From the IMG/VR virus record IMGVR_UViG_3300027708_002199, positions 1 through 64,000 of that record: 64,000 nucleotides of DNA, one strand, 5' to 3'. Each line of letters starts with the position of its first letter. Positions within the stretch are counted from its first letter, which is position 1. The position numbers were made by a program, and so were the translations under genes. Below, piece by piece: positions 1 through 64,000 of this stretch. The notes beneath the pieces were generated by a model. The model was not told where the DNA came from. It worked only from the letters and a program-made list of their open reading frames with translations, and did no database searches. Origin of the DNA: a virus.

Positions 1-745
1 TGTATCGTAACGCAGCAGTTCCCAAATTGTATGTTGAATCTGCTACTGGTATAATAGCTTGTGTTGTCGTTGTTCCTGATATTTGTAATGTTGTAGCAGG
101 CGAAACCGTACCAATACCCAATCTTGCATTCGTATTGTCCCAAAATAATTGTGAGTTATTTTCAGATAATGTTCCACCACTACCCTGAAATATTACCGAA
201 CCTGTTGTAAATGGTGATGATACTGTTGATGCTGATATTGTTGTTGCGGATATTGTCGTAGCAGTTAATCCACCTTGAATTAAAGTATTACCACTAACTT
301 GTAATTTTTGACCTGCGTCTGTTGTTGTGCCGATTAAGAAATTACCATTAGGCCTAACTTTTACGTTAGTTGTATAAGTAGTGGTAGTTGTATTATAACT
401 TCTAATTAAAAAAGCACCATCGGTATTATCTCTGTGAAGATTTGGCATAATTACACCACTTTGCAAAGTTATTCCATTAATACTTCCAACAGATAATTCT
501 GATATTGGCGAAGCCGTACCAACGCCAAATCTATTATTCACATTGTCCCAAAATAATTGTGAGTTACTTTGAGTTAATGTTCCACCACTACCCTGAAATA
601 TAACCGAACCTGTTGTAAATGGTGATGATATAGTTGATGCCGATATTGTTGACGCACTTAATGTACCTGTTACATTTAGATTTGCGTAAACATTGGAGTT
701 TCCGCTGGTTATAAAACCATTTTTTATATTAAATTCGTTTGCCAT
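1..745 (-). CDS. Tail fibre protein, N-terminal part (runs off window)
   Basis: The frame opens at ATG 745 (MANEFNIKNG) and is open to the window edge, so at least 248 N-terminal residues are visible and the C-terminus is missing. It is rich in Ser, Thr, Gly and Asn, with runs such as SATTISAST. Two copies of a module contain TGSVIFQGSGGTL, FWDN and R(F/L)G(V/I)GT.SP. The GT.SP...L.VSG and TYNLGTAA strings are typical of fibres that end in a peptidase S74 (endosialidase-type) self-cleaving chaperone. Such a domain may follow beyond base 1 (inference). The same module occurs in the 1495-residue fibre upstream, so the two fibres share exchangeable cassettes. It probably forms a receptor-binding appendage. 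The fibre assignment is good; the S74 domain is not visible. Confidence 0.75.
   Translation of the reverse strand, partial: MANEFNIKNGFITSGNSNVYANLNVTGTLSASTISASTISSPFTTGSVIFQGSGGTLTQSNSQLFWDNVNNRFGVGTASPISELSVGSINGITLQSGVIMPNLHRDNTDGAFLIRSYNTTTTTYTTNVKVRPNGNFLIGTTTDAGQKLQVSGNTLIQGGLTATTISATTISASTVSSPFTTGSVIFQGSGGTLSENNSQLFWDNTNARLGIGTVSPATTLQISGTTTTQAIIPVADSTYNLGTAALRY
131..255 (-). repeat. Fibre module repeat, copy 1
   Basis: About 120 bp encoding FWDN...GT.SP together with TGSVIFQGSGGTL. It closely resembles DNA at 541-655 in the same gene and 6301-6410 in the 1495-residue fibre. Confidence 0.75.
541..655 (-). repeat. Fibre module repeat, copy 2
   Basis: Second copy of the module. It shares long identical stretches with copy 1, including the DNA for FQGSGGTL and SSPFTTGS, and differs mainly at third codon positions. 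Confidence 0.75.
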
Positions 746-777
746 AAGTAAATCTTTTCCCTATCCAAGATTATTAT

Positions 778-784
778 ATAAATA
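778..784 (-). promoter_or_regulatory. TATTTAT motif for the partial fibre gene
   Basis: GTATTTAT on the coding strand, 32 nt before ATG 745, in the short gap after the stop of the 83-residue gene. It belongs to the long-spacing group of this motif. Confidence 0.6.
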
Positions 785-789
785 CATTA

Positions 790-1041
790 TTAAACTACTC
801 TTTGTAATCCTACCTCATTCAAAGCCCAATCAATTGCATAGTTATCATCGTTTGACCATCCTGAGTATGTTTGTTCGTCCATATATAGGTTACCTTCCAA
901 AACTGTAACACCTTCATCTGTTAACACTTGCCAAAGGAATGGAACTGATGTTGGAAACATCGGGAATTTAAGAGAATCTAAATTAAATTGTGTACCTGTT
1001 CCTTTTGTTGGTACGATAACTGGTTGAATTTCTATATTCAT
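790..1041 (-). CDS. Small hypothetical protein (83 aa)
   Basis: Not recognised. The 83 residues start MNIEIQPVIVP and include a Trp/Tyr/Asp-rich stretch (TYSGWSNDDNYAIDWALNEVG) with no signal peptide or membrane segment. It has its own upstream TATTTAT motif and lies between two fibre or adhesin genes, so a small virion component or a fibre-assembly accessory is possible (inference from position only). Its codon use and composition match its neighbours, and the reading frame fills the space between the two flanking motifs exactly, which supports it as a real gene. Confidence 0.6.
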   Translation of the reverse strand: MNIEIQPVIVPTKGTGTQFNLDSLKFPMFPTSVPFLWQVLTDEGVTVLEGNLYMDEQTYSGWSNDDNYAIDWALNEVGLQRVV

Positions 1042-1057
1042 AGTAATAATGTTTACT

Positions 1058-1064
1058 ATAAATA
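1058..1064 (-). promoter_or_regulatory. TATTTAT motif for the 83-aa gene
   Basis: GTATTTAT, 16 nt before ATG 1041. The preceding base is the last base of the TAG stop codon of the LamG/delta-60 gene, so stop codon and motif touch. Confidence 0.65.
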
Positions 1065-2873: not shown

Positions 2874-3142
2874 ATAATCGGGTCAGGAGATGTCCATTCA
2901 GGAGTTTGTAAAATATCTAATATTTCTTCATAGGTATACGGGCCTTCCTTTGTTGTCAAGGAGTCCACACTTGATGGAACGACATCACCTTCCCATTTAA
3001 CAAATGTCTTTGTTTCATCAACCGACTTTCTAACGGTATCTATTGATGTTTCTAAAACTTGTGTAAAATCAATAAGTGGTAACTCACTTGTACCAAATAT
3101 CATAAATTGTCTTTGTCCGTAATCTTGTAATTGTGTTTCCAT
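2870..3142 (-). CDS. Small hypothetical protein (90 aa)
   Basis: Not recognised. The protein starts METQLQDYGQRQFMIFGTSE and ends in an acidic, Pro-rich tail (GPYTYEEILDILQTPEWTSP). No signal peptide or membrane segment is visible. It is the first gene of a two-gene unit: a TATTTAT motif lies 5 nt before its ATG and its last codons overlap the start of the LamG/delta-60 gene by 4 nt. The tight coupling to an adhesin suggests a dedicated folding or attachment partner, but nothing in the sequence proves this. Confidence 0.65.
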   Translation of the reverse strand: METQLQDYGQRQFMIFGTSELPLIDFTQVLETSIDTVRKSVDETKTFVKWEGDVVPSSVDSLTTKEGPYTYEEILDILQTPEWTSPDPII

Positions 3143-3147
3143 ATGTT

Positions 3148-3154
3148 ATAAATA
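3148..3154 (-). promoter_or_regulatory. TATTTAT motif, 5 nt from ATG
   Basis: ATATTTAT followed by AACAT and then ATG 3142. The base before the motif is the last base of the TAA stop of the 227-residue LamG gene. This is one of the nine very short spacings. Confidence 0.7.
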
Positions 3155-3838: not shown

Positions 3839-3840
3839 TG

Positions 3841-4566
3841 TTAATCAATTACTTTTTCCCAAATAAAACCACCACTTGATTTTAATTTTTTATTTAGACA
3901 CATTGATATGTTTGGTATTTTAACACCACTATCTAATGATGCCATTTTTAAAGATTCATAAACGCATAAAATCATTTTTGTTTTTTTATCTATTTTCGCA
4001 ACCTTTATTTTATTTGGTTTATTTTTACACATATTAATCCTAATATGTTCTGGTAGTTTTTTACCAATTCTATTTTCACTCATTTTTTTCTTGGTTTCAT
4101 CTGACATTTTAAACCCTTTCTTTTTATTGCTAATTTTTTCTTTAGTTTCTTGACTTAGTTTTTTATTCAAATTTACTTTTCGTAATATTTCTTTATGTTC
4201 CTCAGTAAGTTTAGAACCATACCTATTATTAAGATTCCCTATTCTTTGTTTTCCTAAATCACTTAATTTTTTTCTAATTTCTTCAGAAGGATTACGAATA
4301 CCATCACCTCCATCTGTTAAATTGTACCCAATTTTACTATGAGTATTTAATTCTTTAATCCAATAAATTTCTCGTTCACATATATTTTCTTTTGTTAAAT
4401 TTTCTTCAAGTATTTCTTTTGTAAAATTTTTTTTTCCGTATTTTTTTATTGCCAATTTTATTTGATTCCCAGAACCAAAATAATATTTTGATTTGTCTGG
4501 TCGTTCTTCACATTTACCGACATATTTTTTATTATTTATTTTATTTGTTATTAAATAGATATACAT
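3841..4566 (-). CDS. GIY-YIG homing endonuclease with NUMOD3/NUMOD1 modules
   Basis: Free-standing homing endonuclease of 241 residues. The GIY-YIG half is visible as MYIYLITN...KKYVGK, then CEREIYWIKEL with the likely catalytic Glu, then YNLTDGGDG. The middle carries Lys-rich NUMOD3-type repeats (SEEIRKKLSDLGKQRIGN and two relatives). The end (KVAKIDKKTKMI...SGGFIWEKV) resembles a NUMOD1/IENR1 DNA-binding module. I start it at ATG 4566 rather than an in-frame ATG at 4581, because the promoter-like motif lies at 4571-4577 and the earlier ATG lies inside the upstream gene. The gene is visibly more AT-rich than its neighbours and splits two paralogous LamG genes, as expected for a mobile insertion. 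Confidence 0.88.
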   Translation of the reverse strand: MYIYLITNKINNKKYVGKCEERPDKSKYYFGSGNQIKLAIKKYGKKNFTKEILEENLTKENICEREIYWIKELNTHSKIGYNLTDGGDGIRNPSEEIRKKLSDLGKQRIGNLNNRYGSKLTEEHKEILRKVNLNKKLSQETKEKISNKKKGFKMSDETKKKMSENRIGKKLPEHIRINMCKNKPNKIKVAKIDKKTKMILCVYESLKMASLDSGVKIPNISMCLNKKLKSSGGFIWEKVID

Positions 4567-4570
4567 ATTA

Positions 4571-4577
4571 ATAAATA
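4571..4577 (-). promoter_or_regulatory. TATTTAT motif of the first GIY-YIG gene
   Basis: GATATTTATTAATATG: the motif is 4 nt from ATG 4566 and abuts the TGA stop of the 234-residue LamG gene. The same 16-nt string precedes the second GIY-YIG gene at 33.9 kb. Confidence 0.7.
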
Positions 4578-5282
4578 TCACACGATACCAAATCTTGATT
4601 TAGTGGCATTATAGTTTTGCAGGATTTCTGATGCCGTTAAATTTCTATTATATATTTTAGCAGAATATACAATTCCGTTCCATTGTGTTCCTGTACCTGT
4701 TGTACCTGGTCCTCTAGTACCTATTTTAAAATATTGTGATGTTCCAGTGTATGTTTGTGTAACACTTATTCTAAAAACTCCATTAACATACCAAGATTGA
4801 CTTGTACCTGATTTAGATAATGTATAAACTTTAATGTCTGTGGTACCTATGGGTGTCAAGGTTGCAAGTAATGGTGTTGCGAAATTTGTATTATCACCAT
4901 TAAATGATGTTAATCCATCTCCCCATATTTCAAAATCTAACAGTTGATACCCCTGGGAAGTACCGGAAGCAAAACACCATAATGTCTGCCTATTATTAAT
5001 ATCAGTAGTCATTGTGGATGATTTACCAATAACCTCAATAGTATAATTTGTTGAAGTATCTAAAATAAAAGGAACATATATAAAGTCATTAGTACCGTCA
5101 AGTACAATACTACCAGCACTTGTTCCACTATAAACAGGCCCATTAACTAATGTTCCTGTATTCCCACCACGTGAGATATCATTCCAAGTAGTACTTCCAC
5201 TTACATAACTTTTAGTATTTGCAGCATCCAAATACAACACTAATCCGTCCGTAACTATTTTGGGTGAATATTGAAACGCCAT
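4578..5282 (-). CDS. LamG/concanavalin A-like adhesin (234 aa)
   Basis: One LamG-type domain. It starts with TDGLVLYLDAANTKSYVSGS, continues with NTGTLVNGPVYSG and IVLDGTNDFIYVP, and ends with AKIYNRNLTASEILQNYNA. No signal peptide is present, as expected for a phage structural protein. Its closest visible relative is the 227-residue protein on the other side of the homing endonuclease, which suggests gene duplication in the adhesin block. The start lies one base after the stop of the 1495-residue fibre with no TATTTAT motif, so it is probably co-transcribed with that fibre. The coding strand has AGAGG about 8 nt before ATG, one of the few possible Shine-Dalgarno-like strings here. Confidence 0.75.
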   Translation of the reverse strand: MAFQYSPKIVTDGLVLYLDAANTKSYVSGSTTWNDISRGGNTGTLVNGPVYSGTSAGSIVLDGTNDFIYVPFILDTSTNYTIEVIGKSSTMTTDINNRQTLWCFASGTSQGYQLLDFEIWGDGLTSFNGDNTNFATPLLATLTPIGTTDIKVYTLSKSGTSQSWYVNGVFRISVTQTYTGTSQYFKIGTRGPGTTGTGTQWNGIVYSAKIYNRNLTASEILQNYNATKSRFGIV

Positions 5283-5283
5283 T

Positions 5284-9780: not shown

Positions 9781-10815
9781 TTATATATCAATCTTACTTC
9801 CTCTAAAATAAAGGTCATAAGTATTATCCAATTCAAACGTATTTGATGGGTATGTGGTGTAAACTCTATATGTTGTCTTAACAATTGTACCACCAGTATA
9901 AGTGAATGTGTTAGCGTAAATTGTTGGTTCCATTTTCACACTTGTAAAGACATTTGGATTAACAATCCCCAAATCAATTTCAACTTGATACTTGTAATTT
10001 GTATATACCACAGGTATTATCCATGTGTACCATGCTTTAGAACCTACAGTATTTTCAGCAACTTTTGTAGTTAAAAAATTATAAGCAATTTTTGGATTAC
10101 CATATGAGTCAAAACCACTTGTCGTGATTGGTATCGTCTGTTTGATAATCGACGGAAATAATCCTGTTGTCCACCCTGAAAAATTAACATATCGATTCAT
10201 ATCAGAGTCAAACGTACTTGCCGAACTACTTGGTTGTGTTGTGTTTGTGAATCCATAGAAACTCGACCCAAGTGAACTCATATAAGAACCAATACTCGAT
10301 GAACCTGAATAAGGCTCAATAAATAAATAACCATATAATAAAGGTTCAGGTGTTGGTGTAGGTGTAGGAGTTGTTGTAACAGTTGGAGTTACGGTCTTAG
10401 TAGGTGTAATACTTGGAGTTACGGTCTTAGTAGGTGTAATACTTGGAGTTACGGTCTTAGTCGGTGTAATAGTTGGAGTAATACTCGGTGTCGGTGTATG
10501 TGATGGTGTAATACTCGGTGTTGGTGTATGTGATGGTGTTAAAGAAATCGTTGGGGTAATACTCGGAGTAATACTCGGAGTTGGTGTCGGTGTCACACAC
10601 ATATATTCTTGTGTAAACACACATCCCGTAGAATCAACTATTTTAATTAATAATTTGGGAGCACTTGTATATCCACTCGGTATTGGAAAACTAACTGCCG
10701 GTGGAATGTAATTTACAAAAGTGTCGACAAACTGACAATTAAATTGGAAAATGTCACAAACATATATTTGATATGGTGGAACACCTGATATGTTATCAAT
10801 TGTAATTAAACTCAT
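9781..10815 (-). CDS. Tail protein with SprB-like N-terminus and Pro/Thr stalk (344 aa)
   Basis: Three parts are visible. Residues 1-75 ([32 protein letters not shown]) resemble an SprB-type repeat, the module of Bacteroidota gliding adhesins. Residues about 76-158 are a low-complexity stalk of [16 protein letters not shown] and [11 protein letters not shown] units. The C-terminal about 185 residues form a separate domain that I do not recognise. A TATTTAT motif lies 5 nt before its ATG, so it heads a unit containing the 1495-residue fibre and a LamG protein. A role as a tail-surface spacer or adhesin is inferred from architecture. Confidence 0.65.
10381..10470 (-). repeat. Three tandem 30-bp repeats (Pro/Thr stalk)
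   Basis: Three head-to-tail 30-bp units (10381, 10411, 10441) differ at only a few bases. They encode [10 protein letters not shown]-type units. Shorter related repeats continue to about 10590. Confidence 0.85.
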
Positions 10816-10820: not shown

Positions 10821-10827
10821 ATAAATA
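10821..10827 (-). promoter_or_regulatory. TATTTAT motif, 5 nt from ATG
   Basis: GTATTTAT, then TTTAG, then ATG 10815. It heads the unit 344-residue protein, 1495-residue fibre, 234-residue LamG protein. Confidence 0.7.
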
Positions 10828-15942: not shown

Positions 15943-16847
15943 TAAACAATAATAGTTTGAAAGTTTTTAGTGAAATCGATATTGTCCCCTCTGTCTTGTC
16001 TAACTTCATATAACAAGTCGTTTAATTGGTCTCTAATTTCATATAAGTTATATTGTTTGTATATGTTATTAGAAGTATCGTAGATAGTATAAATTCCATC
16101 ATCAATTGATTTAGTTTGATTACCGTAAAGAGCAATCGCCAATGTTGAGATATCATGTTCAACAATTTCAACTTCCAATGATATTGGATTAAAGAATGTA
16201 TTTGTAATTACAATATTTTGATTTGGTTGCCCAATGTTAGGTATTGCGTTTGGTCTATTTGTTGGTGCGGATGATGGTGATAAAGTACAAAATACTAAAT
16301 TAGATGACCCTTGAGAATAGATATATCTAATAGATTTGTCTTGTGTGTTTGTTAAGTTTTGAGTAACAGGTTCACAATAAAAATTAGAAGTAATTATTCT
16401 GTAAAAATTAGGGATTTTTGTATTATCTGTTGGGTCGTAATATTCAACTCTAAATCCAGTTAATCCTTGATTCGCAAAGTTTGTTAAAAAATTTGATGGG
16501 ACATTTGTTAAATCAATTACTATCCCTTTTACATTAGGTAAAGAACTTAAAATACCACAATCAGTAATTACAGTTTTAATTTGAGCAGGTCTTAAAATTA
16601 ATGTGTAAATCCCTAAGTTATTAAATTGATTAGCAGGTAAATTTAAATTATATAAACCACCTAATATTTGATTTGTATTACCACCTGTATTCGCGTTATT
16701 GAAATATGGTATAAGATTAGAGTTTGGTATCGTGAAAAGAGTGAAATTTTCAGTTTGGTCGCGCGATGCCGTATAATGAACTATTATTTCAACATCAGCG
16801 GGGCTTACATCCGCTAGTCTTATTGTTCCGTAATTACCTGTTGCCAC
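15942..16847 (-). CDS. Baseplate-associated structural protein (301 aa)
   Basis: The frame begins with GTG at 16847 (MATGNYGTIRLADVSPAD); no ATG is available at this end. The protein is a soluble beta-rich chain ending in NLYEIRDQLNDLLYEVRQDRG, a helix that could mediate assembly. No known domain is recognised. It heads the unit 301-984-714 residues and has a TATTTAT motif 28 nt upstream. Position between wedge proteins and host-recognition proteins suggests a baseplate component (inference). Confidence 0.6.
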   Translation of the reverse strand: MATGNYGTIRLADVSPADVEIIVHYTASRDQTENFTLFTIPNSNLIPYFNNANTGGNTNQILGGLYNLNLPANQFNNLGIYTLILRPAQIKTVITDCGILSSLPNVKGIVIDLTNVPSNFLTNFANQGLTGFRVEYYDPTDNTKIPNFYRIITSNFYCEPVTQNLTNTQDKSIRYIYSQGSSNLVFCTLSPSSAPTNRPNAIPNIGQPNQNIVITNTFFNPISLEVEIVEHDISTLAIALYGNQTKSIDDGIYTIYDTSNNIYKQYNLYEIRDQLNDLLYEVRQDRGDNIDFTKNFQTIIV

Positions 16848-16875: not shown

Positions 16876-16882
16876 ATAAATA
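16876..16882 (-). promoter_or_regulatory. TATTTAT motif before the GTG-start baseplate gene
   Basis: CTATTTAT, 28 nt before GTG 16847, in the only sizeable gap between the two baseplate operons. Confidence 0.6.
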
Positions 16883-16898: not shown

Positions 16899-17993
16899 TT
16901 AACTCTTAACAACGTTGAAAAAACCATATCCATATTTTGCTAACCCTGGTGTTGTTCCTACTTCACCTATTCTTCTAAAATTCTCTAACCCACTATTAAC
17001 CCCTCTCTCAATCAAAACAGTAGTTTGAATTTGGAAATCATCAATAACATTCATTAAAACTTCATTTTTAGTTATCGCACTATAATGTAACATTGATTCA
17101 GTTAGTCCTGAAGAATATGCAACAAATACTGAAGTCCCTCCCGAAAAATCTAAATAATCTATATTATTAATAGTATATGCGGTATATCCATTTTGTATAT
17201 TTGTAACCGTTCCTGTACACCCTGAACAATCAGGTATTGGTATGTTAACACCAATTTGATATGGGTTTGAACCATACAACGCCAATTCTCTCAATCTTGA
17301 TTGAGTTGACCCCGAAATAACATAAGGTACTGAGACATACGCAGGTGTTGATTGTTCATATAAGTTAAGGTTAGAGTCACCAGACCAAGTAAAGTTATAC
17401 AATGATGGAGCGGTACTCCAACTACCACCTTGTGAAACAAAAGTAACCGTACCTAATGGATTTAAAATTTGAACGTCTGTAAATGGAACTTCTACCGTTT
17501 TTTGAACCGTTAGTATACCAAAACTATTAAATTGAGTTAAGGTAATAACAAAGTTTTGAGGGGTATTTGTATTACACTGTGAGTACACATGACTAATATA
17601 ATCAGGTGAAAAATTAGTTATAGATTGGACAGGTGTACCATCCCCCCAATCAACTTGATAAGTGGAATCTTGTAAATAATTAATTGTACTTTCTGTGGTA
17701 TTATAAACATAGTACGTACATGGTGAACCTGTTGTTGCACTAAAAAGAAAATTAACATTAACATTTTGTTGACTAATATCACCATCAAAGACTGAGTAGT
17801 AACCTATATCATGATAATCTTGATTTAATACAATCGGTATTGTTAATCCTGTAAATAATGAAGACCCGTTTGTTCCACCACTTAACATTTGACTAAGACC
17901 TGAGTATACACCAAAAGTATTACCATCATAAGTTTCACTAATAATGTCTGTCTTTAAAAACTCAGGTGATATTTTTATTCTAATAGTATCCAT
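16899..17993 (-). CDS. Baseplate structural protein with PKD-like segment (364 aa)
   Basis: Residues about 105-150 contain YQVDWGDGTPVQSI, the WGDGT signature of PKD-like Ig folds. The C-terminus (VLMNVIDDFQIQTTVLIERGVNSG, GLAKYGYGFFNVV) is the recognisable end of a conserved virion protein of T4-like phages of aquatic bacteria. The start overlaps the upstream stop (TAATG), so it is translationally coupled as last gene of the wedge operon. A role as a wedge-periphery or tail-pin protein is inferred; no T4 protein is matched with certainty. Confidence 0.6.
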   Translation of the reverse strand: MDTIRIKISPEFLKTDIISETYDGNTFGVYSGLSQMLSGGTNGSSLFTGLTIPIVLNQDYHDIGYYSVFDGDISQQNVNVNFLFSATTGSPCTYYVYNTTESTINYLQDSTYQVDWGDGTPVQSITNFSPDYISHVYSQCNTNTPQNFVITLTQFNSFGILTVQKTVEVPFTDVQILNPLGTVTFVSQGGSWSTAPSLYNFTWSGDSNLNLYEQSTPAYVSVPYVISGSTQSRLRELALYGSNPYQIGVNIPIPDCSGCTGTVTNIQNGYTAYTINNIDYLDFSGGTSVFVAYSSGLTESMLHYSAITKNEVLMNVIDDFQIQTTVLIERGVNSGLENFRRIGEVGTTPGLAKYGYGFFNVVKS

Positions 17994-26496: not shown

Positions 26497-26503
26497 ATAA
26501 ATA
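26497..26503 (-). promoter_or_regulatory. TATTTAT motif of the wedge operon
   Basis: CTATTTAT, 12 nt before ATG 26484. It heads the units of 1847, 615, 374 and 364 residues. Confidence 0.65.
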
Positions 26504-28384: not shown

Positions 28385-28846
28385 TTATATATTAATTATT
28401 ACAAAACTACTTGAGTTAAACACATCATTTGTTATTTGATAGTCAATTCTTACTTTAGCAGTATATTCTTTAGTTGCCAATCCTGGTATAGTTAATTGTG
28501 TATTTACAACGTTTCCTTCTGTTGTTACATATGGACCCGCTTCTTCAGATGATAGAGCGGTGACCCTTATCGATGTTATCAATAAGTTCGGTATATATGT
28601 TTCCACAGAATCTTTAATTTCCGATTCAATATCATTAAATGTTGGCCCATCTAATGGTTCAAAAATATACTCATACAATCTTGTACCAAAATCAGGTAAA
28701 AAATATCTACTACCTTTTCGAGTTAATAATAAGTGTATTAAATTATTTTTAATCTCATCACTAGGAGTTTCAGATAAGTTAAGATATTTTCCAGTTAAGG
28801 AATCACCAAAAGGAAAATTAATACCGTATGTTACACCATTAGCCAT
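28385..28846 (-). CDS. gp25: Baseplate wedge protein gp25-like (GPW/gp25 family)
   Basis: The protein has 153 residues against 132 in T4. The family core is clear: LLLTRKGSRYFLPDFGTRLY followed by EYIFEPLD and SVETYIPNLLITSIRV. The ext at the N-terminus is INFPFGDSLTGKYLNLSETP. In T4-like phages gp25 nucleates sheath attachment to the baseplate and works with gp6. First gene of a two-gene unit with gp6; a TATTTAT motif lies 5 nt before ATG and a terminator hairpin isolates it from the upstream flavoprotein gene. Confidence 0.9.
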   Translation of the reverse strand: MANGVTYGINFPFGDSLTGKYLNLSETPSDEIKNNLIHLLLTRKGSRYFLPDFGTRLYEYIFEPLDGPTFNDIESEIKDSVETYIPNLLITSIRVTALSSEEAGPYVTTEGNVVNTQLTIPGLATKEYTAKVRIDYQITNDVFNSSSFVIINI

Positions 28847-28851: not shown

Positions 28852-28858
28852 ATAAATA
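28852..28858 (-). promoter_or_regulatory. TATTTAT motif, 5 nt from gp25 ATG
   Basis: GTATTTAT, then AAAAT, then ATG 28846. It lies immediately downstream of the flavoprotein terminator. Confidence 0.7.
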
Positions 28859-29690: not shown

Positions 29691-29697
29691 ATAAATA
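29691..29697 (-). promoter_or_regulatory. TATTTAT motif, 4 nt from flavoprotein ATG
   Basis: GTATTTAT, then TATT, then ATG 29686. It lies just past the nrdA terminator. Confidence 0.7.
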
Positions 29698-32200: not shown

Positions 32201-33151
32201 TTAAAAATCGTCAGTAAAGGAGATAGTCTCATTTAACTTGGCTTTTTGATATTCAACGGTACGTGACTCAAAGAAATTACCCTTTGTTTCAACTGCGATT
32301 TGTTCCATGAATTTGAACGGTTGCTCAACATTAAATTGTTTTTTACATCCAAACTTTACTAATAATCCATCAACAACAAACTCAAGATATTGTTTCATTA
32401 AATTTGAATTCATACCGATAAGTGAAACTGGTAGTGATTCAGTGATGAACTCTTTTTCAATCTCTAATGCTGACAATAGAATTTCTTTAATTCTTTTCTC
32501 ACTCGGTTTGTTTTCAATGTGATTGTTCAATAAATGAATTGCGAAGTCACAGTGTAAGTTTTCGTCTTTGAAAATCAAAGCGTTAGCATTACACAATCCT
32601 TGCATGATACCTCTTGATTTCAACCAAAAGATAGAACAGAATGAACCTGAAAAAAAGATACCCTCAACCGCAGCAAACGCAACCAATCTTTCTTGGAACG
32701 ATGCGTTCTCAATCCAATCTAAAGCCCATTTAGCTTTCTTTTGAACTGCAGGTAGGTTATCTAACGCTGTAAAACATTTGTTCTTTTCTTCTTCATTTGA
32801 TACGTAAGTATCAATAAGAAGAGAATACATTAAACTGTGAATGTTTTCCATAGCAAGTTGCATACCATAGAAAAACTTAGCTTCAGGATATTGTACTTCT
32901 CTGTAGAAATTCTCAGCCAGGTTTTCATTTACAATACCATCTGACGCCGCGAAAAACGATAAAATATTTTTTACAAAATACTGTTCATTCTCTGATAAGT
33001 TTTCCCAATCTCTTAGGTCACCGCTTAAATCAATTTCTTCTGCCGTCCAAAACGCCGCTTGATGCATCTTATAATATTCCCAAATATCATTGTGATGGAT
33101 AGGAAATATTACAAATCGGTTCGGATTAATTTCTAAAATTTTTTCTTTCAT
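32201..33151 (-). CDS. nrdB: Ribonucleotide reductase class Ia, small subunit
   Basis: 316 residues. Houses the di-iron centre and the tyrosyl radical. Ligands are visible: Asp in LRDWENLSENE, the ExxH pair in AMENIHSLMYSLL with the radical Tyr four residues after His, Glu in AVEGIFFSGS, and the ExxH pair in DENLHCDFA. An intact radical Tyr indicates the aerobic class Ia enzyme rather than the Tyr-less variants. The C-terminal tail (ETISFTDDF) is the NrdA-docking peptide type. It has no TATTTAT motif; it sits 14 nt behind the second homing endonuclease, so nrdB-nrdA may depend on that gene's transcription or on an unseen promoter. Confidence 0.96.
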   Translation of the reverse strand: MKEKILEINPNRFVIFPIHHNDIWEYYKMHQAAFWTAEEIDLSGDLRDWENLSENEQYFVKNILSFFAASDGIVNENLAENFYREVQYPEAKFFYGMQLAMENIHSLMYSLLIDTYVSNEEEKNKCFTALDNLPAVQKKAKWALDWIENASFQERLVAFAAVEGIFFSGSFCSIFWLKSRGIMQGLCNANALIFKDENLHCDFAIHLLNNHIENKPSEKRIKEILLSALEIEKEFITESLPVSLIGMNSNLMKQYLEFVVDGLLVKFGCKKQFNVEQPFKFMEQIAVETKGNFFESRTVEYQKAKLNETISFTDDF

Positions 33152-33165: not shown

Positions 33166-33894
33166 TTAATTATTTACGTATTCCCAAAAAAAACCACCAC
33201 ACGAATTTCTAACCCCCTTACAAACTAAAACAATATTACCTTTATTTTTAATATTATTTTTTTTACAAGCAATTTCTAATGATGGATATATTTCTAAAAT
33301 TTTTTTTGTTTTTAAACATATTTTTTTTACTTTTCTAACATTTTTTGCAGGTTTCCCTTTTAAGTAACTATTTTGACTAAGTTTTAATTTATGTTCTTTT
33401 GATAATTTTTTTCCAATTAAAGAATTACTAATATTTTTTTTAGTCTCTTGGGTTCTTTTTTTCCCTTTACCTGATTTTCCAATTTTTTCTTTATGTTCGT
33501 CTGACAATTTTTTACCTTTCCAATAATTATGTTTTCCTTTATTACTTTTTGATATTTTTTTTCTAGTTTCCTCGCTCGGAACATAATTAAGATTTGACTC
33601 ACCACCGTCGGTCAGATTAAGTAATTTATTAGTTTCTTTATAATTTTTTATCCAATATATTTCTTTTTCAACCCATTCTTTATCATTAGTTTCTTCAATT
33701 ACTTTTATTTCAGGAATTTTATTTTCTTTCAACATTTTTTTTATCCACAAATATAAAGGTCTTTTAATATTTTTTTTACTTAAATAAATGTGTTGTCGTA
33801 ACCGTTCTTTTATATCTTTTTTTGTTTTTCCAACATACCTTATTATCTCAGGTTTGTCCGGATGAAAAATTCCATAAATTACAATTGTTTCCAT
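33166..33894 (-). CDS. GIY-YIG homing endonuclease with NUMOD3/NUMOD1 modules
   Basis: 242 residues. GIY-YIG half: VIYGIFHP..IIRYVGKT..DIKERLRQH (catalytic Arg) and EKEIYWIKNY (catalytic Glu), then LLNLTDGGES. The centre has four NUMOD3-type Lys-rich units (SEETRKKISKSNKGK and relatives). The end (KVKKICLKTKKILEIYPSLE...CGGFFWEYVN) matches the C-terminal module of the first endonuclease at 3841-4566. It is very AT-rich with long A/T runs compared with nrdB. It sits between the replicative helicase gene and nrdB, a typical place for T4-like homing genes. The gene occurs as a free-standing insertion, not within an intron. Confidence 0.9.
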   Translation of the reverse strand: METIVIYGIFHPDKPEIIRYVGKTKKDIKERLRQHIYLSKKNIKRPLYLWIKKMLKENKIPEIKVIEETNDKEWVEKEIYWIKNYKETNKLLNLTDGGESNLNYVPSEETRKKISKSNKGKHNYWKGKKLSDEHKEKIGKSGKGKKRTQETKKNISNSLIGKKLSKEHKLKLSQNSYLKGKPAKNVRKVKKICLKTKKILEIYPSLEIACKKNNIKNKGNIVLVCKGVRNSCGGFFWEYVNN

Positions 33895-33898: not shown

Positions 33899-33905
33899 AT
33901 AAATA
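33899..33905 (-). promoter_or_regulatory. TATTTAT motif of the second GIY-YIG gene
   Basis: GATATTTATTAATATG: 4 nt from ATG 33894 and identical over 16 nt to the motif region of the first GIY-YIG gene. Confidence 0.7.
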
Positions 33906-33945: not shown

Positions 33946-35316
33946 TTATACCTGTTGTTGTTTTCTTTTCTCCATAATTTCTTTAATTCTACTTCTATTT
34001 CTTTCTTCCTTCTGTTCCTCAAGTCCTAAGAATGTTGTAGTACTTTCTGTATCAATTTCTAACATTTCGTTATTGAACTTACAGTTTTCAAATACCACTC
34101 CGTCTTTACCAATTCTCGACTTTGTGATAGCAATAGTTGCAAGATTTAATTCTTTTTGTTGTAGCGACTTAGCCACCGTGATGATAACGTGTCCTACCTG
34201 AGCCTTCTTAATAGAACCACCCATTTGGTCAGTTGTTACCACATCAGATGAAATAGAACTTCTATTACCCTGTGTTGCCGTCCAACCAGCAATATCTAAT
34301 TCATGACACATTGATTCAAACGCTCTCATCACTGAACCCTCAGATTTCCATTCATCGTCCATCATCTTTTCAGGTGTTACACAATCAATATAATCCAAAA
34401 TAACAACATCAATCTTTGTCCCATCAGCAATCAACTTTCTAATCTGATTTTTAATCTGATTCATAGTTAATGTGTCTGAAGGTAACTTTTTCATAATCAA
34501 CTTGTTTGGCATTGTTTCCTTAATCTCTGCGATTTTAGCCATAACTTTTTCTTTATGATTACCAAGTTCGTCAGGTGCTATACCCGTCCAACATGTAAAA
34601 TGTTTTCTCTGAATGATTTTATAGTTATCCTCAAAGAAAATTTGTAATACATTAAAACCTAAATTAAAAGCGTGATTAGCAATCTTTGTTGTCAGTGTTG
34701 ACTTACCAACACCAGTGGGTGCTAATATAACACCAATTTCTCCTTTCGCCAAACCACCTTTCAAAAGATTATCAATACCCGGTATTCCCATAGGGATTGG
34801 ATGTCTATAATCATCCGCTAATACTTCATCTAAGTCTTGAAACACATCTCCCGTTCCTCTATCCACGTTTCCAACCTGTAAAGCTCCTCTAACCATTTCT
34901 TCCAAAGTGTCGTAGTTTTCAAACTCACCGTGGTCAATGATTTTCTTAGCCTTATCCATAACTTTTTGAAGTTCTTGTTGTTTACAAAACTTCAATGCTT
35001 TTTCCTGTACAAACTGAGTGCCCTCTTCGGTAACATTTTGTATATCAGAAATAGTGTCAAGAGTTATCTTTAATAATAACTCCTGACTAATTTCACTCTT
35101 AGCTTTTTGTTGAATTGTCTCAAAACTAGGACTGTGTTCAAACTTTGAATAGTATTCTTTTACCATCTGAACAAATAATCTGAAGTATTTGTTTTCAAAA
35201 TAAGTAGATTCCATCACCTCAATAATTGAGTGTGAAAAATCCTTATCAAGTATTATTTGGTTAAGAAGTTGTAATTGGAAGGTCTCTCCCAAATAGTCAA
35301 AATTTTTGTCAGCCAT
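33946..35316 (-). CDS. Replicative DNA helicase (DnaB/T4 gp41 family)
   Basis: 456 residues. The helical N-terminal domain (residues 1-150) resembles the DnaB primase-interacting domain. The RecA-like motor follows: Walker A APTGVGKST at about 199-207, Walker B VVILDYIDCV, then WTATQGNRSSIS and DQMGGSIKKAQVGHVIITV, ending in AITKSRIGKDG. These fit the DnaB/gp41 hexameric 5'-3' fork helicases. It unwinds DNA at the replication fork and would pair with a primase that is not in this window. A TATTTAT motif lies 18 nt upstream, abutting the stop of the 150-residue gene. Confidence 0.9.
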   Translation of the reverse strand: MADKNFDYLGETFQLQLLNQIILDKDFSHSIIEVMESTYFENKYFRLFVQMVKEYYSKFEHSPSFETIQQKAKSEISQELLLKITLDTISDIQNVTEEGTQFVQEKALKFCKQQELQKVMDKAKKIIDHGEFENYDTLEEMVRGALQVGNVDRGTGDVFQDLDEVLADDYRHPIPMGIPGIDNLLKGGLAKGEIGVILAPTGVGKSTLTTKIANHAFNLGFNVLQIFFEDNYKIIQRKHFTCWTGIAPDELGNHKEKVMAKIAEIKETMPNKLIMKKLPSDTLTMNQIKNQIRKLIADGTKIDVVILDYIDCVTPEKMMDDEWKSEGSVMRAFESMCHELDIAGWTATQGNRSSISSDVVTTDQMGGSIKKAQVGHVIITVAKSLQQKELNLATIAITKSRIGKDGVVFENCKFNNEMLEIDTESTTTFLGLEEQKEERNRSRIKEIMEKRKQQQV

Positions 35317-35334: not shown

Positions 35335-35341
35335 ATAAATA
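35335..35341 (-). promoter_or_regulatory. TATTTAT motif of the helicase gene
   Basis: ATATTTAT, 18 nt before ATG 35316, directly against the TGA stop of the preceding gene. Confidence 0.65.
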
Positions 35342-38764: not shown

Positions 38765-38796
38765 CAAGTATAAGTGTGTCAGCCGTGATAGTCAAA
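38765..38796 (-). promoter_or_regulatory. Bacteroidota-type promoter for gp32
   Basis: On the minus strand TTTG (38796-38793) and TATACTTG (38772-38765) are 20 nt apart. The Bacteroidota housekeeping consensus is TTTG, 19-21 nt, TAnnTTTG; there is one mismatch. Transcription would start about 30 nt before ATG 38735. No TATTTAT motif is present here. Confidence 0.55.
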
Positions 38797-39491: not shown

Positions 39492-39708
39492 TTAATAATT
39501 GTTTGAAACCTTGTGTTGTTTCTACGTTTATTTTTTTATTAGTATAAAGAGTATTGTTAACTCTTTCAATTAATCCGTCTTTCATTCTGATTGTGTAACA
39601 ATCTCCTGTATCTAAATCACATACTTCTTTGAAACCATTACCTTTATCTGTTTCAGTAATTCTTGTACTTTTTCCAAGATATCTGTCTAAAATTTCTTTA
39701 GTGCCCAT
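39484..39708 (-). CDS. Small hypothetical protein (74 aa)
   Basis: Not recognised. It starts MGTKEILDRYLGKSTRITET and has VCDLDTGDCYTIRMKDGLIE, a short beta-hairpin-like motif with two Cys. No signal peptide. First gene of a two-gene unit: a motif lies 14 nt upstream and its end overlaps the 228-residue gene, so the two proteins probably act together. Confidence 0.6.
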   Translation of the reverse strand: MGTKEILDRYLGKSTRITETDKGNGFKEVCDLDTGDCYTIRMKDGLIERVNNTLYTNKKINVETTQGFKQLLNG

Positions 39709-39722: not shown

Positions 39723-39729
39723 ATAAATA
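39723..39729 (-). promoter_or_regulatory. TATTTAT motif before the 74-aa gene
   Basis: ATATTTAT, 14 nt before ATG 39708, in the gap after the hub gene. Confidence 0.6.
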
Positions 39730-58400: not shown

Positions 58401-58578
58401 CAAAATAAGTTTGGAATTCATCATAATTAGTGATGAATAAAGGTTCAAATGCAGGACCCTTAAGAGTTTCTCCCACAATACCTAAAGTAGTTACACCAAC
58501 ACTTTGTGAAACAAAAGATAAATCTCTCTCTGAGGTATAAACACCTGGAGAAACGAATACTTTGTTTGCTGTTGCCAT
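55411..58578 (-). CDS. gp18: Tail sheath protein (T4 gp18 family) with large insertion
   Basis: 1055 residues against 659 in T4 gp18. The N-terminus (KVFVSPGVYTSERDLSFV, GIVGETLKGPAFEP, FGGTLPEKFVN) and the C-terminal core (AFPWFATAGYTRGIVN, RRLLLQARKLISAVAIRLLF, IKPTKALEFIDIEFL) are the sheath framework that contracts around the tube. Residues about 110-400 are an inserted, Gly/Ser/Tyr-rich region (TISGTSGAYSGSVSGFYYGF type) probably exposed on the sheath surface. It has its own motif 33 nt upstream and a terminator downstream. Confidence 0.93.
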   Translation of the reverse strand: MATANKVFVSPGVYTSERDLSFVSQSVGVTTLGIVGETLKGPAFEPLFITNYDEFQTYFGGTLPEKFVNTQIPKYEAAYIAKSYLQQSNQLYVTRILGLSGYDAGPSWSITTIANVNCSTVGITGGTSFSINFTGSTASTSSVRFTSSVPSVISGNTYYTNAYTQFDGGTSTILGDLQTQLYNILVTNSTSGTSAYYFGPVSGTQVTANIAAGLTASTNVFDVNSITASTINYCSGTNDAWFYANFVPPTNGNAYYGNSYYTRVSSLSGTSGAYSGSVSGFYYGFSGTSYSGYNNLVVATLRSRGITQYSTTLHGPQYQVTGTSNVTMIGTGSYSGISQNPYSTFLISGKTYNNNTFSFETSFTTSKSNYISSVFGVENFAKDRTEVPLFVEERYSTMLDYAYSQGYIRGLNANNFISLGDARTSTNLDTTGFYLERYQTPSSPWVVSELRGNLVYKLFRVYTIPDGNAANREVKISIANISFNNGTFDLIVRDFYDTDANPTVMEKFTNCTLDATSNSYVAKKVGSIDGEYAILSKYIMLEMNEEAPLDALPCGFEGFITRSYTNGTSPFPIYKTHYAIPGEIIANPPFGNSAGSDNAITSPGDNKRRTYLGISSSVGVDADFFDYKGKQRPIGDLCEEGTYNNWPNTTKGFHMDSGATVVMVSGMTQFEVGDGSFSSEPTDAENPYYFLYSRKYSFLVQGGFDGWDIYEEKRGNGDSYMLGQTAFKAGFCPQAPYPTSTGWGSFKIITIEDGTRSYGNTDYYAYLLGIRTFANPEVTNINALVTPGVDYVNNSGLIESAIDMITNERADSIYVCTTPDFNLLQNSTSMDNLIYPQEAVDNLEQTGIDSNYTATYYPWVLTRDTVNNTQIYLPATAEVTRNLALTDNIAFPWFATAGYTRGIVNAVRARKRLTQEDRDTLYKGRINPIATFNDVGTVIWGNKTLQIADSALNRINVRRLLLQARKLISAVAIRLLFEQNDNTVRQQFLDSVNPILDAIRRDRGLYDFRVTVQNTPEDLDANQLVGKIYIKPTKALEFIDIEFLITPTGASFEDI

Positions 58579-58611: not shown

Positions 58612-58618
58612 ATAAATA
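58612..58618 (-). promoter_or_regulatory. TATTTAT motif of the sheath gene
   Basis: ATATTTAT, 33 nt before ATG 58578, in the divergent gap shared with the plus-strand small gene. Confidence 0.6.
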
Positions 58619-58654: not shown

Positions 58655-58661
58655 TATTTAT
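58655..58661 (+). promoter_or_regulatory. TATTTAT motif on the plus strand
   Basis: CTATTTAT (58654-58661), 35 nt before the TTG start at 58697. It forms a divergent pair with the sheath motif and is followed at once by a hairpin. Confidence 0.5.
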
Positions 58662-58667
58662 TGATTA

Positions 58668-58691: not shown

Positions 58692-58696
58692 CTACC

Positions 58697-58846
58697 TTGA
58701 AAATAAAGAACCTTAAGATATCTGAAGAATCACATTTGTTATTAAAAAAACATTGTTTAAAGCATGGGTTGAAAATTCATAAGTTTATTGAAAAACTTAT
58801 TGAATTAAACTGTACTGAAAAAAGGGATATCTACGGAGAAAATTAA
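58697..58846 (+). CDS. Small ribbon-helix-helix-like protein (49 aa)
   Basis: TTG at 58697 gives MKIKNLKISEESHLLLKKHC, a natural beginning for a short DNA-binding protein: a beta strand (LKISEE), a helix, a turn (KHGLK) and a second helix (IHKFIEKLIEL). This is the ribbon-helix-helix pattern, seen in phage regulators and antitoxins. An earlier in-frame TTG at 58661 lies inside the motif and would add 12 unlikely residues. Plus-strand gene between two minus-strand structural genes; its end overlaps by 4 nt the convergent end of the 349-residue gene. Possible regulator of late tail expression (inference). Confidence 0.45.
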   Translation: MKIKNLKISEESHLLLKKHCLKHGLKIHKFIEKLIELNCTEKRDIYGEN

Positions 58847-59892: not shown

Positions 59893-60407
59893 TATAATCC
59901 TCTAAATTCGTTTTCCATCACAGGTGATGCGTTAATTGTTCTGTAAAATGGTTTATAACCACCATATGTATGTTTATTATCTGACACTACACGACCATCG
60001 TTGTTAACCACATAGTATCTAACCTGATTTTCAGTTTCGTAATAAGCAATATAATCCCCAAGTTCAATGTCAATATCTAATTCCTCTAAATGTTTTTGGT
60101 AAACAGAAATTCTGGCATTACCAGGTTCCATTTGATTAATTTTACTTGACCCAAGAAATTTATTTTCAGGAGCAACAATTTGTAGATATGCTTTAAACTC
60201 AACAGGAGGTAAAAATTTAATTCCATCTTCTTGAGTTTCACCATACACATCATCAACATTTGTTTTCTTTTTATCAACTTTATACAATATAAGTGTAAAG
60301 TTCATATCTCCCTCTAGCCATTCGCGCCCCATACTAATATCTAAATTATAATCTTCCCCTCCGAAAAATTTGCCTAATCTTGTTATTGGAACTATTCTGT
60401 TTGACAT
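59892..60407 (-). CDS. Neck protein candidate (171 aa, gp14-like by position)
   Basis: Start chosen at ATG 60407 (MSNRIVPITRLGKFFGGEDY) because the motif at 60412-60418 ends 4 nt before it; an in-frame ATG at 60485 would lie upstream of the motif and overlap the divergent helicase. The protein is beta-rich, with DIDIELGDYIAYYETENQVR and YGGYKPFYRTI, similar to head-closure or stopper folds that sit between portal and tail. First of two genes before the sheath. T4 gp14 equivalence is by order and fold style, not by clear sequence identity. Confidence 0.55.
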   Translation of the reverse strand: MSNRIVPITRLGKFFGGEDYNLDISMGREWLEGDMNFTLILYKVDKKKTNVDDVYGETQEDGIKFLPPVEFKAYLQIVAPENKFLGSSKINQMEPGNARISVYQKHLEELDIDIELGDYIAYYETENQVRYYVVNNDGRVVSDNKHTYGGYKPFYRTINASPVMENEFRGL

Positions 60408-60411
60408 ATTG

Positions 60412-60418
60412 ATAAATA
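60412..60418 (-). promoter_or_regulatory. TATTTAT motif, 4 nt from neck-gene ATG
   Basis: ATATTTAT, then CAAT, then ATG 60407. It decides the start of this gene. Confidence 0.7.
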
Positions 60419-60464
60419 TTTCTTTTTTGATTATTATTATAGTTGTATAGTTAATTAAAATAAT

Positions 60465-62225: not shown

Positions 62226-62226
62226 G

Positions 62227-62233
62227 TATTTAT
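62227..62233 (+). promoter_or_regulatory. TATTTAT motif, 5 nt from SOD-fusion ATG
   Basis: GTATTTAT, then AATTA, then ATG 62239. It lies 1 nt after the helicase TAA stop. Confidence 0.7.
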
Positions 62234-62238
62234 AATTA

Positions 62239-63744
62239 ATGAAATCGTTAAATATAGTATCAGAGTCATTAGTTAGTCGTTTGTTAGGTGAGGAAACTCA
62301 ACCTGAAACCAAATTTTTTATTAACGAAATAAAAACCATTGGTATTGATAAACTACCGTATGGATATGCATCATTAAGAAGATTTATTGACCCTGAGACA
62401 ATGAAGTTTCATTATCAAAAACATTACAAGGGGTATGTTAAAAAATTAAATTCAGCTCTTCGTAAAAAAGATTATGGTGATGTTGAATTGGAAAATATTG
62501 TTAAACAGATATCAAAGTATAATACAACAATAAGAAATAACGCAGGTGGAGCCTTTAACCACGCATTGTTTTGGAAGATGTTATCACCCTCACCACAAAA
62601 ACCAAGTGGAGAAGTGTTTGAAAAGATTGTTAAACAATTTGGAACATATCGTAACTTCAAAACTAAATTTGAAGAAATCTCAAGAAAACGATTTGGTTCA
62701 GGGTGGTGTTGGTTAGTTTTAACCGATACAGGTAGATTAAAAGTAATGTCCACTTCAAATCAGGACAACCCACTTATGAATATAATTAATCAAGGTGGAT
62801 TTCCGTTGTTAGGTTTGGATTTATGGGAACACGCTTATTATTTAAAATACCAAAACAAAAGAGATGAATATATTGAAAACTTTTGGGAGGTAATCAACTG
62901 GAAATTTGTTAACGAGTTATACAAATCAAAAACTGAAAAAAAATTGAACGAATCAATTTCATCAAAAAAACTTTTATACGAAAATGTGTCGGATTACTCA
63001 GATATTTTTAGTAACAATAAAAATGTTCTTTGGACTTATAGAAGATGTATTGATAATACTTTGAAGACGGTTTTGTCTGATAAGTGGTATGAAAACAATC
63101 AATACTCAGAAGGTTCATCTTCAGGTATTTACGACTTGGAAGAACCATGTCGTTCAGTAATTAATAAATTAAATACAAATTATATTGGGTTTAAGATTTT
63201 AGTTGATGATTTGAATGTCGTACTTACAAAACTAAATAAACCCACATTAAATTTTATTGGGGTAACACCTTCACAACAAGTACAAGAAATAAATAAATTT
63301 TGTGAATATTTGAGTTTTTTTGGTGAAAGAATTTTTAAAGGGTCTAAAACTCTTGACAAAATTATGAAACTTTTAAAAAGAACACATGACAAAGGTGGTC
63401 AGCTTGAGGAGTATGTTGCTAAAAAAATCAATCAAGAATTTGGTGAAGGAACTGCAGTTGTAGTGGGTAGTTTAGGTTCAAAAGAAGATTTTGCAGGAAC
63501 TGATTTAACAGTGAATTTTGATAATAAAATACAAAACGCTCAAGTTAAACCAATTTTAAATATGGAAGTGATTGACGGTTTTTATAATATTAAAATTAAA
63601 GGGTTTGTTAAAAAGTTTAATACCGACTTATTAATTTTCTCAAATATTAATAAAGAAGTTTATATTTTTAAAAACAAAACTGTCGCTTTTAGTTCAAGTA
63701 TGTTTAAAATCCCAACACAAGATTTAATTTATACTGTGAATTGA
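62239..63744 (+). CDS. Mn/Fe superoxide dismutase fused to a PD-(D/E)xK-like domain
   Basis: 501 residues. Residues 1-30 are an N-terminal extension with SLVSRLLGE (L16-G17-E18, head-protease-type site). Residues about 31-230 are a complete Mn/Fe superoxide dismutase: metal ligands H58 (FHYQKHYKGYV), H108 (NHALFW), D194 and H198 (LDLWEHAYY). G104 and Q175 (NQDNPLM) are the manganese-type choices. Residues about 235-385 are an unknown helical linker. Residues about 386-501 look like a PD-(D/E)xK nuclease fold: E390 (GGQLEEYV), D422 (GTDLTV) and QVK at 435-437. The SOD domain is certain; the nuclease call is tentative. I know of no such fusion in a phage. Confidence 0.8.
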   Translation: MKSLNIVSESLVSRLLGEETQPETKFFINEIKTIGIDKLPYGYASLRRFIDPETMKFHYQKHYKGYVKKLNSALRKKDYGDVELENIVKQISKYNTTIRNNAGGAFNHALFWKMLSPSPQKPSGEVFEKIVKQFGTYRNFKTKFEEISRKRFGSGWCWLVLTDTGRLKVMSTSNQDNPLMNIINQGGFPLLGLDLWEHAYYLKYQNKRDEYIENFWEVINWKFVNELYKSKTEKKLNESISSKKLLYENVSDYSDIFSNNKNVLWTYRRCIDNTLKTVLSDKWYENNQYSEGSSSGIYDLEEPCRSVINKLNTNYIGFKILVDDLNVVLTKLNKPTLNFIGVTPSQQVQEINKFCEYLSFFGERIFKGSKTLDKIMKLLKRTHDKGGQLEEYVAKKINQEFGEGTAVVVGSLGSKEDFAGTDLTVNFDNKIQNAQVKPILNMEVIDGFYNIKIKGFVKKFNTDLLIFSNINKEVYIFKNKTVAFSSSMFKIPTQDLIYTVN

Positions 63745-63751
63745 TATTTAT
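63745..63751 (+). promoter_or_regulatory. TATTTAT motif of the neck/connector gene
   Basis: ATATTTAT, 16 nt before ATG 63768, directly against the TGA stop of the SOD fusion. A weak inverted repeat GATATTT/AAATATC spans the motif. Confidence 0.65.
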
Positions 63752-63767
63752 ATAAAAATATCACTTC

Positions 63768-64000
63768 ATGAATACAATAATCGCAGAACCATACAGAAGT
63801 CAACTATACACAAAAGTTAGACACGTACTCGGAGCACCAATTCGTTCAATTGAATTAGAAGACGAACAAATGGATTCCATCTTGGAATTTTCTATTGGGG
63901 ATTACGCCCAGTATGTTCAAGATTGGTTAATTGAATCGCAATGGACTTCATTATATAATTTAAATTTAGATACACAATCTTTATCAAGAGCATTTGTAAC
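63768..64000 (+). CDS. Neck/connector protein, N-terminal part (runs off window)
   Basis: ATG 63768 opens a frame that runs to the window edge (77 residues visible). The sequence TKVRHVLGAPIRSIELEDEQ followed by MDSILEFSIGDYAQYVQDWL is the start of a head-completion or neck (gp13-like) protein widespread in T4-like phages. It probably binds the portal and closes the head. It starts behind the SOD fusion with its own motif. The T4 gene number cannot be settled from the part seen. Confidence 0.6.
   Translation, partial: MNTIIAEPYRSQLYTKVRHVLGAPIRSIELEDEQMDSILEFSIGDYAQYVQDWLIESQWTSLYNLNLDTQSLSRAFV

Follow-up and report, generated by a model that had tools for sequence, protein, structure and literature searches.

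The heptamer TATTTAT, found before 21 genes in the first 64,000 bases (the window) of the 70,945-base virus record IMGVR_UViG_3300027708_002199, appears to act as the -10-like element in a class of mostly late, phage-specific promoters, likely read by a gp55-family sigma factor with a new code. A rough probability of 0.72 is given to this reading. The record is a fragment of a T4-like contractile phage. A phage-specific late promoter, already proposed from the sequence-only reading, is the best explanation of the conservation of the motif before orthologous genes, its fixed orientation, and its presence before mostly virion genes and not before most replication genes. The promoter is called late from the functions of these genes. 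Recognising it would let the late genes be mapped in a group of T4-like phages that is common and has hardly been cultured, and the altered code, a natural variant, would be a test case for gp55 specificity. Literature searches, mainly of titles and abstracts, returned no paper reporting TATTTAT as a phage promoter.

TATTTAT was located on the coding strand before all 21 of the starts first named for it, at gaps of 4 to 35 nucleotides (nt). The sites are given below with the state of the matched starts in up to eight related contigs, which carry labels such as G012.

778..784, minus strand: TATTTAT, 32 nt before the gene start at 745
1058..1064, minus strand: TATTTAT, 16 nt before the gene start at 1041
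3148..3154, minus strand: TATTTAT, 5 nt before the gene start at 3142, predicted leaderless
4571..4577, minus strand: TATTTAT, 4 nt before the gene start at 4566; the longest open reading frame begins with GTG at 4581
10821..10827, minus strand: TATTTAT, 5 nt before the gene start at 10815; kept in G012, not in G003, G001 or G014
16876..16882, minus strand: TATTTAT, 28 nt before the GTG start at 16847; motif in 4 of 7 relatives
26497..26503, minus strand: TATTTAT, 12 nt before the start of a 1847-residue gene at 26484; motif in 7 of 7 relatives, at 12-17 nt
28852..28858, minus strand: TATTTAT, 5 nt before the gp25-like start at 28846, behind a hairpin and T run; motif in 7 of 7 relatives
29691..29697, minus strand: TATTTAT, 4 nt before the gene start at 29686; the sole matched relative, G014, is without the motif
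33899..33905, minus strand: TATTTAT, 4 nt before the homing-endonuclease-like start at 33894; no orthologous start in 8 relatives
35335..35341, minus strand: TATTTAT, 18 nt before the DnaB-like helicase start at 35316; motif in 6 of 7 relatives
39723..39729, minus strand: TATTTAT, 14 nt before the gene start at 39708; motif in 8 of 8 relatives
50832..50838, minus strand: TATTTAT, 15 nt before the start of a 1571-residue gene at 50816; motif in 6 of 6 relatives
52929..52935, minus strand: TATTTAT, 17 nt before the gene start at 52911; no orthologous start matched in 8 relatives
54446..54452, minus strand: TATTTAT, 34 nt before the tail tube start at 54411; motif in 7 of 8 relatives
55348..55354, minus strand: TATTTAT, 4 nt before the gene start at 55343; motif in 4 of 7 relatives, 3 of them at 4 nt
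58612..58618, minus strand: TATTTAT, 33 nt before the tail sheath start at 58578; motif in 7 of 7 relatives
60412..60418, minus strand: TATTTAT, 4 nt before the gene start at 60407; motif in 8 of 8 relatives, at 4-19 nt
58655..58661, plus strand: TATTTAT, 35 nt before the uncertain start of a small TTG frame at 58697; motif in 6 of 8 relatives
62227..62233, plus strand: TATTTAT, 5 nt before the gene start at 62239; motif in 3 of 4 relatives
63745..63751, plus strand: TATTTAT, 16 nt before the head-completion-like start at 63768; motif in 8 of 8 relatives, at 13-16 nt

The orientation is fixed as had been claimed, with 21 of the upstream 50-mers of 43 starts carrying TATTTAT on the coding strand and three carrying it in reverse. 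Dinucleotide shuffles of the same 43 50-mers gave a mean of 1.95 (standard deviation 1.31), with a maximum of 8 in 2000. TATTTAT is also the top heptamer of two A and five T in these regions, the second being ATTTATT with 9. Equal density inside genes in the same orientation, which the sequence-only reading had named as evidence against itself, was not found: copies inside minus-strand genes number 14 in 58,976 bases (0.24 per kb), with six more in the opposite orientation. The 1,288 bases up to position 58,700 that lie outside minus-strand genes contain 18 minus-strand copies, namely 17 of the listed sites and one at 54521-54527. Over the whole window and both strands the count is not raised (46 versus 55 expected), and the signal is therefore one of placement only. 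The earlier remark that motif-less genes closely follow another gene was also broadly right; across nine contigs the gap is below 12 nt for 631 of 1135 genes without the motif versus 25 of 374 with it.

Genes were called by script as longest-ATG open reading frames, and five of the 21 starts are not the longest-frame start or not ATG: 4566, 16847 (GTG), 55343, 58697 (TTG) and 60407. The orthologues of start 55343 have the motif at 4 nt in three of seven relatives. Those of start 60407 have it at this distance in three of eight and within 60 nt in all eight. For the 50-codon TTG frame at 58697, eight relatives have a match, six of them with the motif within 60 nt.

All named phages are distant from this one. 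The nearest recombinase is that of Flavobacterium phage immuto (40.7% identical), and the tail tube protein is 42% identical to those of Microcystis phage Mel-JY01 and LR756508, 39% to immuto and 36% to Rhodothermus phage RM378. IMG/VR searches with the tail tube and gp25 proteins each gave at least 600 matches, and the closest long relative among those read is G012 (240,759 bases), with a median protein identity of 75% over 35 matched genes. At orthologous starts in eight related contigs, TATTTAT is present in 82 of 97 cases for the motif genes of the window versus 5 of 130 for its other genes, although orthologous sites across the nine contigs are not independent; the corresponding figures for G012 alone are 14 of 14 and 0 of 21.

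Among 1012 unique upstream 40-mers from 160 related loci, TATTTAT occurs 312 times forward and 56 times in reverse, with 6.3 expected from gene bodies, and it ranks first in one-sidedness of all heptamers, in a sample that favours the motif because the loci were fetched with two proteins of motif-bearing genes. Forward, reverse and expected counts in the individual long contigs are 74/28/2.2 in G012, 42/7/1.4 in G005, 29/4/0.8 in G003, 36/15/1.2 in G001, 31/14/1.0 in G002, 24/9/0.7 in G006, 29/12/0.7 in G011, 71/38/4.8 in G014, 52/19/1.5 in the distant G028 and 29/14/1.0 in immuto. By one-sidedness the motif ranks first in four of 11 contigs (this record, G003, G005 and G012) and 3 to 91 in the other seven, where it is outranked by other words, mostly A-rich near start codons or overlapping TATTTA. 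Immuto and RM378 have one-sided TATTTA-type words, ATATTTAT (17 versus 0) and TATTTAAA (26 versus 5), respectively, and TATTTAAA is the promoter-like word of RM378. In the 50 kb read of the 636-kb LR756504, TATTTAT occurs three times forward and five times in reverse.

Gene classes were assigned in these genomes with named immuto proteins as guides. TATTTAT precedes 9 of 11 sheath genes, with a TATTTA variant in the remaining two, 9 of 11 tube genes (a variant in RM378, none in G006) and 8 of 9 gp25 genes (a variant in G028). It also precedes 10 of 11 head-completion-like genes, 5 of 7 gp21 protease genes, 4 of 6 portal genes and 3 of 6 terminase genes; in immuto it lies before the terminase, portal, sheath and tube genes. 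The motif is absent before the genes for gp32 (0 of 9), UvsX (0 of 10, with one TATTTAC), 5'-3' exonuclease (0 of 9), NrdA and NrdB (0 of 5 each), ThyA (0 of 3), primase (0 of 8) and PhoH (0 of 5), and also before those for gp6 (0 of 9) and the hub protein gp26 (0 of 9, with TATTTA variants in six). Contig G020 carries paired adjacent tail sheath genes (70213-73431 and 73541-76771), whose products are 66% and 62% identical to the sheath protein of the window. Terminators were considered as a companion feature and show no excess (27 of 248 motif genes with a gap of at least 30 nt versus 36 of 394 others).

The anatomy of the element was derived from 378 TATTTAT sites in nine contigs. The base just before the motif is rarely T (7%), and the downstream bases are A/T-rich. 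A patch 14-16 nt before the first base of the motif is nearly free of G and C, with 6% GC at -15 (3-12% per contig) versus 27-36% for in-gene copies. The 118 reverse-oriented copies show this patch in part (13-19% GC), and some of them may be divergent promoters. An A-rich step at +11 to +13 from the motif start reaches 81-82% A in the 251 sites with the ATG at least 10 nt away and 66-71% in the 98 sites with the ATG at least 18 nt away, and because of this fall part of the step is start-codon context. Both the patch and the step are weaker against stricter controls than against the first ones. The distance from motif to ATG is bimodal, being 0-3 nt in 7 sites, 4-6 nt in 101, 7-11 nt in 28, 12-19 nt in 161 and 20-50 nt in 81. 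Of the 21 words one base away from TATTTAT, none shows an excess in one orientation that compares with it.

The sequence-only reading had put an unseen sigma-like protein forward as the reader of the motif. This part stands to the extent that a gp55-family protein exists in relatives, whereas a search of the 70,945 bases of this record found no sigma; the missing sigma has probably been found in the relatives. Ten long contigs were searched with the Pfam sigma-2 model. Seven have an RpoD-like sigma of about 270 residues over the cut-off, one has an ECF-type sigma, and three show a second family, weakly matched. The second family, of about 240 residues and present at 57 loci in IMG/VR, occurs in G002, G006, G011, G012, G014, G028 and immuto, and also in RM378, Mel-JY01 and LR756508. 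G012 encodes both sigmas, the gp55-like one at 79,364-80,107 and the RpoD-like one at 201,348-202,196. The RM378 member, at 17032-17826, is the 'hypothetical' Rm378p020 (E value 3.6e-12); the annotated sigma of RM378 looks ECF-like by eye. The gp55-like gene is without TATTTAT in five of five contigs, as expected if its product is made before the late genes.

By sequence profiles and a structural model, the second family can be assigned to the gp55 family, with sigma-2 homology. T4 gp55 was the sole match at an E value of 1 or less in a PDB profile search (0.011), 29 of 34 members match PHROG 234 'late sigma transcription factor' at 1 or less (best 4e-4), and comparison to a profile of seven gp55 proteins gave 1.2e-5 with a probability of 81%. 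The AlphaFold2 model (mean pLDDT 76.7, pTM 0.44) has gp55 of 7d7c as its best structural match, with Z 11.0 and a root-mean-square deviation of 2.6 over 108 residues; other sigma-2 domains are within one Z unit, and helical models can reach such scores through a common helix arrangement. Foldseek alone gave no match to the model at an E value of 0.001 or less, and its top matches were other sigma factors.

According to PMC7892883, Y97 of T4 gp55 holds A-12, N13 and H95 hold A-9, and T99 bonds A-8. In two concordant alignments, 32 of 34 members retain R57 and F86, all 34 retain Y97 and 33 retain the polymerase contact D74, while T99 is replaced by G in 32 members and H95 by Y or F in all; R114 is changed as well. 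The clearest change thus falls on the -8 reader T99, which can be suggestive only, as the TATTTAT base at -8 is not fixed by the data.

A gp55-family sigma would direct the host RNA polymerase to the TATTTAT promoters, opening the DNA and reading the non-template strand as T4 gp55 does, with TAT-TT-AT in place of TAT-AA-AT. Such a sigma is presumably encoded by this phage too. Transcription would begin 4-6 nt past the motif, on an A. Where the ATG lies exactly at the start point the mRNA would be leaderless, and elsewhere a leader would be made. From the spacing classes, the 4-6 nt class is predicted to be leaderless and the 12-19 nt class to have leaders of about 7-14 nt, and awkward leader lengths would be avoided.

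Other genes of these phages appear to use host-type promoters. The pattern TTG-N18-23-TAnnTTTG is one-sided in G014 (22 versus 4), G028 (19 versus 1), G012 (12 versus 3) and Mel-JY01 (13 versus 0), has no match in this record, and gives 0 versus 3 in immuto. For most of the group, these counts speak for two classes of promoter and for hosts whose polymerase is of the Bacteroidota type. TAnnTTTG and TATTTAT lie together upstream of 0, 0, 4 and 2 genes in G012, G005, G014 and G028, respectively, with about 22 expected in total from the margins. In G028 (345 kb), ACTATTTAT, a TTGTATATT word and Shine-Dalgarno words (AAGGAGG; AGGAG 37 versus 1) precede genes, so that three signals can be distinguished. 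In immuto, a second word, TATATTTAGGTA, lies 21-29 nt before 12 small genes at 60-77 kb and may mark an early promoter class. One weak candidate in the window was found by eye:

38765..38796, minus strand: possible host-type promoter of the gp32-like gene, with TTTGAC, 18 nt and TATACTTG, one base off TAnnTTTG

Several observations weigh against a gp55-read, mostly late promoter. TATTTAT is absent before the major capsid gene in all seven contigs checked, which speaks against a simple late reading because T4 gene 23 has a late promoter, P23 (PMC7892883). It is present before the DnaB-like helicase gene in six of ten contigs and before PhoH in immuto. Copies of the motif are scattered along much of the G012 and G014 genomes and form no single late block, though with gaps in which 1 of 27 genes (80-100 kb) and 0 of 26 genes (240-260 kb) carry it. 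Plain TATTTAT is not one-sided in Mel-JY01 (16 versus 14), yet ATATTTAT is (14 versus 2), and LR756508 has a gp55-like gene, but the motif is not visible in its 100 kb that were read. In the motif-bearing G001, G003 and G005, which may be fragments, no gp55-like protein was found. Within the protein, the gp55 polymerase contact E77 is S in 33 of 34 members, and H95 is already F in three of seven gp55 proteins. Of the T4 partners, gp33 (PF16805) is over the cut-off in none of seven contigs, fragments being possible, with one weak match in G014 (E value 0.0091). The gp45 clamp was found in none of seven with PF02916 and none of six with phrog_223, in contigs that may be fragments and with models that may miss distant forms. 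The bacterial clamp PF00712 is over the cut-off in none of six contigs (again possibly fragments), and the clamp-loader search (phrog_168) matched all 14 control genomes and is uninformative.

The motif may instead be read by the RpoD-like protein, alone or together with the gp55-like one. This protein has sigma regions 1.2, 2 and 4 and, in addition to its wide occurrence, is present in G001, G003 and G005, where no gp55-like protein was found. However, it was not detected in the motif-bearing 110-kb fragment G006, nor found in immuto, RM378 and Mel-JY01 at E values of 0.01 to 0.05, and these three phages still have TATTTA-type words. Since immuto and RM378 have, of the two proteins, only the gp55-like one and yet have one-sided TATTTA words, the gp55-like protein is favoured, and the RpoD-like reader is considered unlikely. 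Less likely still is another factor, such as an ECF-type sigma, a host sigma or an activator protein. The ECF-type sigma gene of G001 (L181:16740-17291) itself starts 4 nt behind TATTTAT, but such a gene is over the cut-off in one of ten contigs, and the host-type TAnnTTTG is a different word that meets TATTTAT in one upstream region in only the six genes counted above.

The closeness of the motif to start codons might also point to a translation or mRNA-processing signal and no promoter, and many T4-like 5' ends can come from processing (PMC2988020). The two separate spacing classes, reaching up to about 40 nt, argue against this, as do the A/T-only patch 14-16 nt upstream, the A step anchored on the motif, and the fact that genes directly behind another gene are mostly without TATTTAT; such a signal is improbable, slightly more so than another factor. 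Chance in A/T-rich gaps would agree with the lack of enrichment over the whole window, but it is already refuted by the shuffles, the orientation and the conservation at orthologous starts.

At its C terminus the gp55-like protein carries an additional helical domain, about 90 residues long (model pLDDT 85). Structure searches with this domain gave no clear match; Z reached 5.0 (sigma-54, RpiR-type), and no gp33 or sigma-4 row stood out. As a source of the domain, gp33 shows no similarity (one T4 sequence, probability 2.5%). It is conceivable, though doubtful, that the protein is a fused late sigma, in which a gp55-type domain 2 is joined to its own polymerase- or DNA-binding domain acting on the -27 A/T patch, with gp33 and clamp activation unneeded. 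Were the C-terminal domain to bind the polymerase flap or upstream DNA, this would be a fused late sigma absent from T4, where a review remarks on the absence of such a protein (PMC2988020), and the domain is relevant to the question of why the late sigma of T4 is divided between gp55 and gp33. The gp55-like assignment also provides a likely function for immuto gp118, left 'hypothetical' in this cultured relative.

The structural genes of the window encode a baseplate wedge gp6, gp25, a hub, a tail tube and a Hoc-like protein, and the genes for DNA and nucleotide functions encode a DnaB-like helicase, UvsX-like and gp32-like proteins, a ribonucleotide reductase and a DNA helicase. Between 29749 and 38735 the reductase, helicase, exonuclease, UvsX and gp32 proteins are 96-99% identical to those of G012 and the flanking virion genes 38-75%, and this stretch appears to be a recombination mosaic relative to G012. 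A homing-endonuclease-like gene at 33166-33894, with its own TATTTAT 4 nt before the ATG, is inserted between the reductase and helicase genes. Among named phages, the sole DNA-level match of window positions 20-40 kb is at 32387-33117, 70% identical to the uncultured phage LR756504.

T4 late promoters carry TATAAATA at -13 to -6 (PMC1524935). The motif had been described as a reversed T4 word, a correct description but not the only one: ATAAATA reads the same backwards (a mirror palindrome), its reverse complement equals its complement, and reversal and complementation are thus indistinguishable. The smallest change by eye is of two central bases, TAT-AA-AT to TAT-TT-AT. The T4 word is not an enriched consensus here, with TATAAATA forward in 22 of the relatives' 1186 upstream 40-mers versus 176 for TATTTATA. 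A T4 control (50 kb, 53 upstream regions) gave the expected picture: TATAAATA occurs 11 times forward and five in reverse, and TATTTAT six times forward and 14 in reverse. According to PMC1524935, the gp55 promoter word drifts among T4-like phages (CTAAATA in Aeh1; also KVP40 and S-PM2), and Aeh1 gp55 has diverged; these variants keep the central AAA of TAAATA, whereas the centre here is TTT.

The system shares with T4 late transcription a short, strict A/T -10-like word before virion genes and an A/T-rich downstream stretch (for T4, PMC1524935 and PMC2988020), and a gp55-family sigma, here in relatives. The predicted start 4-6 nt past the motif would be much like that of T4 late promoters, about 6 nt past the element. 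Unlike in T4, many sites imply leaderless mRNAs, the relatives' sigma has the extra C-terminal helical domain, and gp33 and gp45 were not detected in the six or seven relatives searched, whose contigs may be fragments. An A/T patch, in part also present at reverse-oriented copies, lies near -27, whereas T4 late promoters are described as having no conserved upstream sequence (PMC7892883). With Bacteroidota housekeeping promoters (-33 TTTG and -7 TAnnTTTG; PMC6847099), which also lie before other genes of these phages, the system probably shares the same RNA polymerase; unlike their -7 element, TATTTAT has no TTTG, and the two are rarely in the same upstream region. Group 2 jumbo phages have already been said to encode RpoD-like and minimal sigma factors and gp33 orthologues (PMC7824862). 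Beside late transcription of the T4 kind, what may be new here is the code and the C-terminal domain of the sigma.

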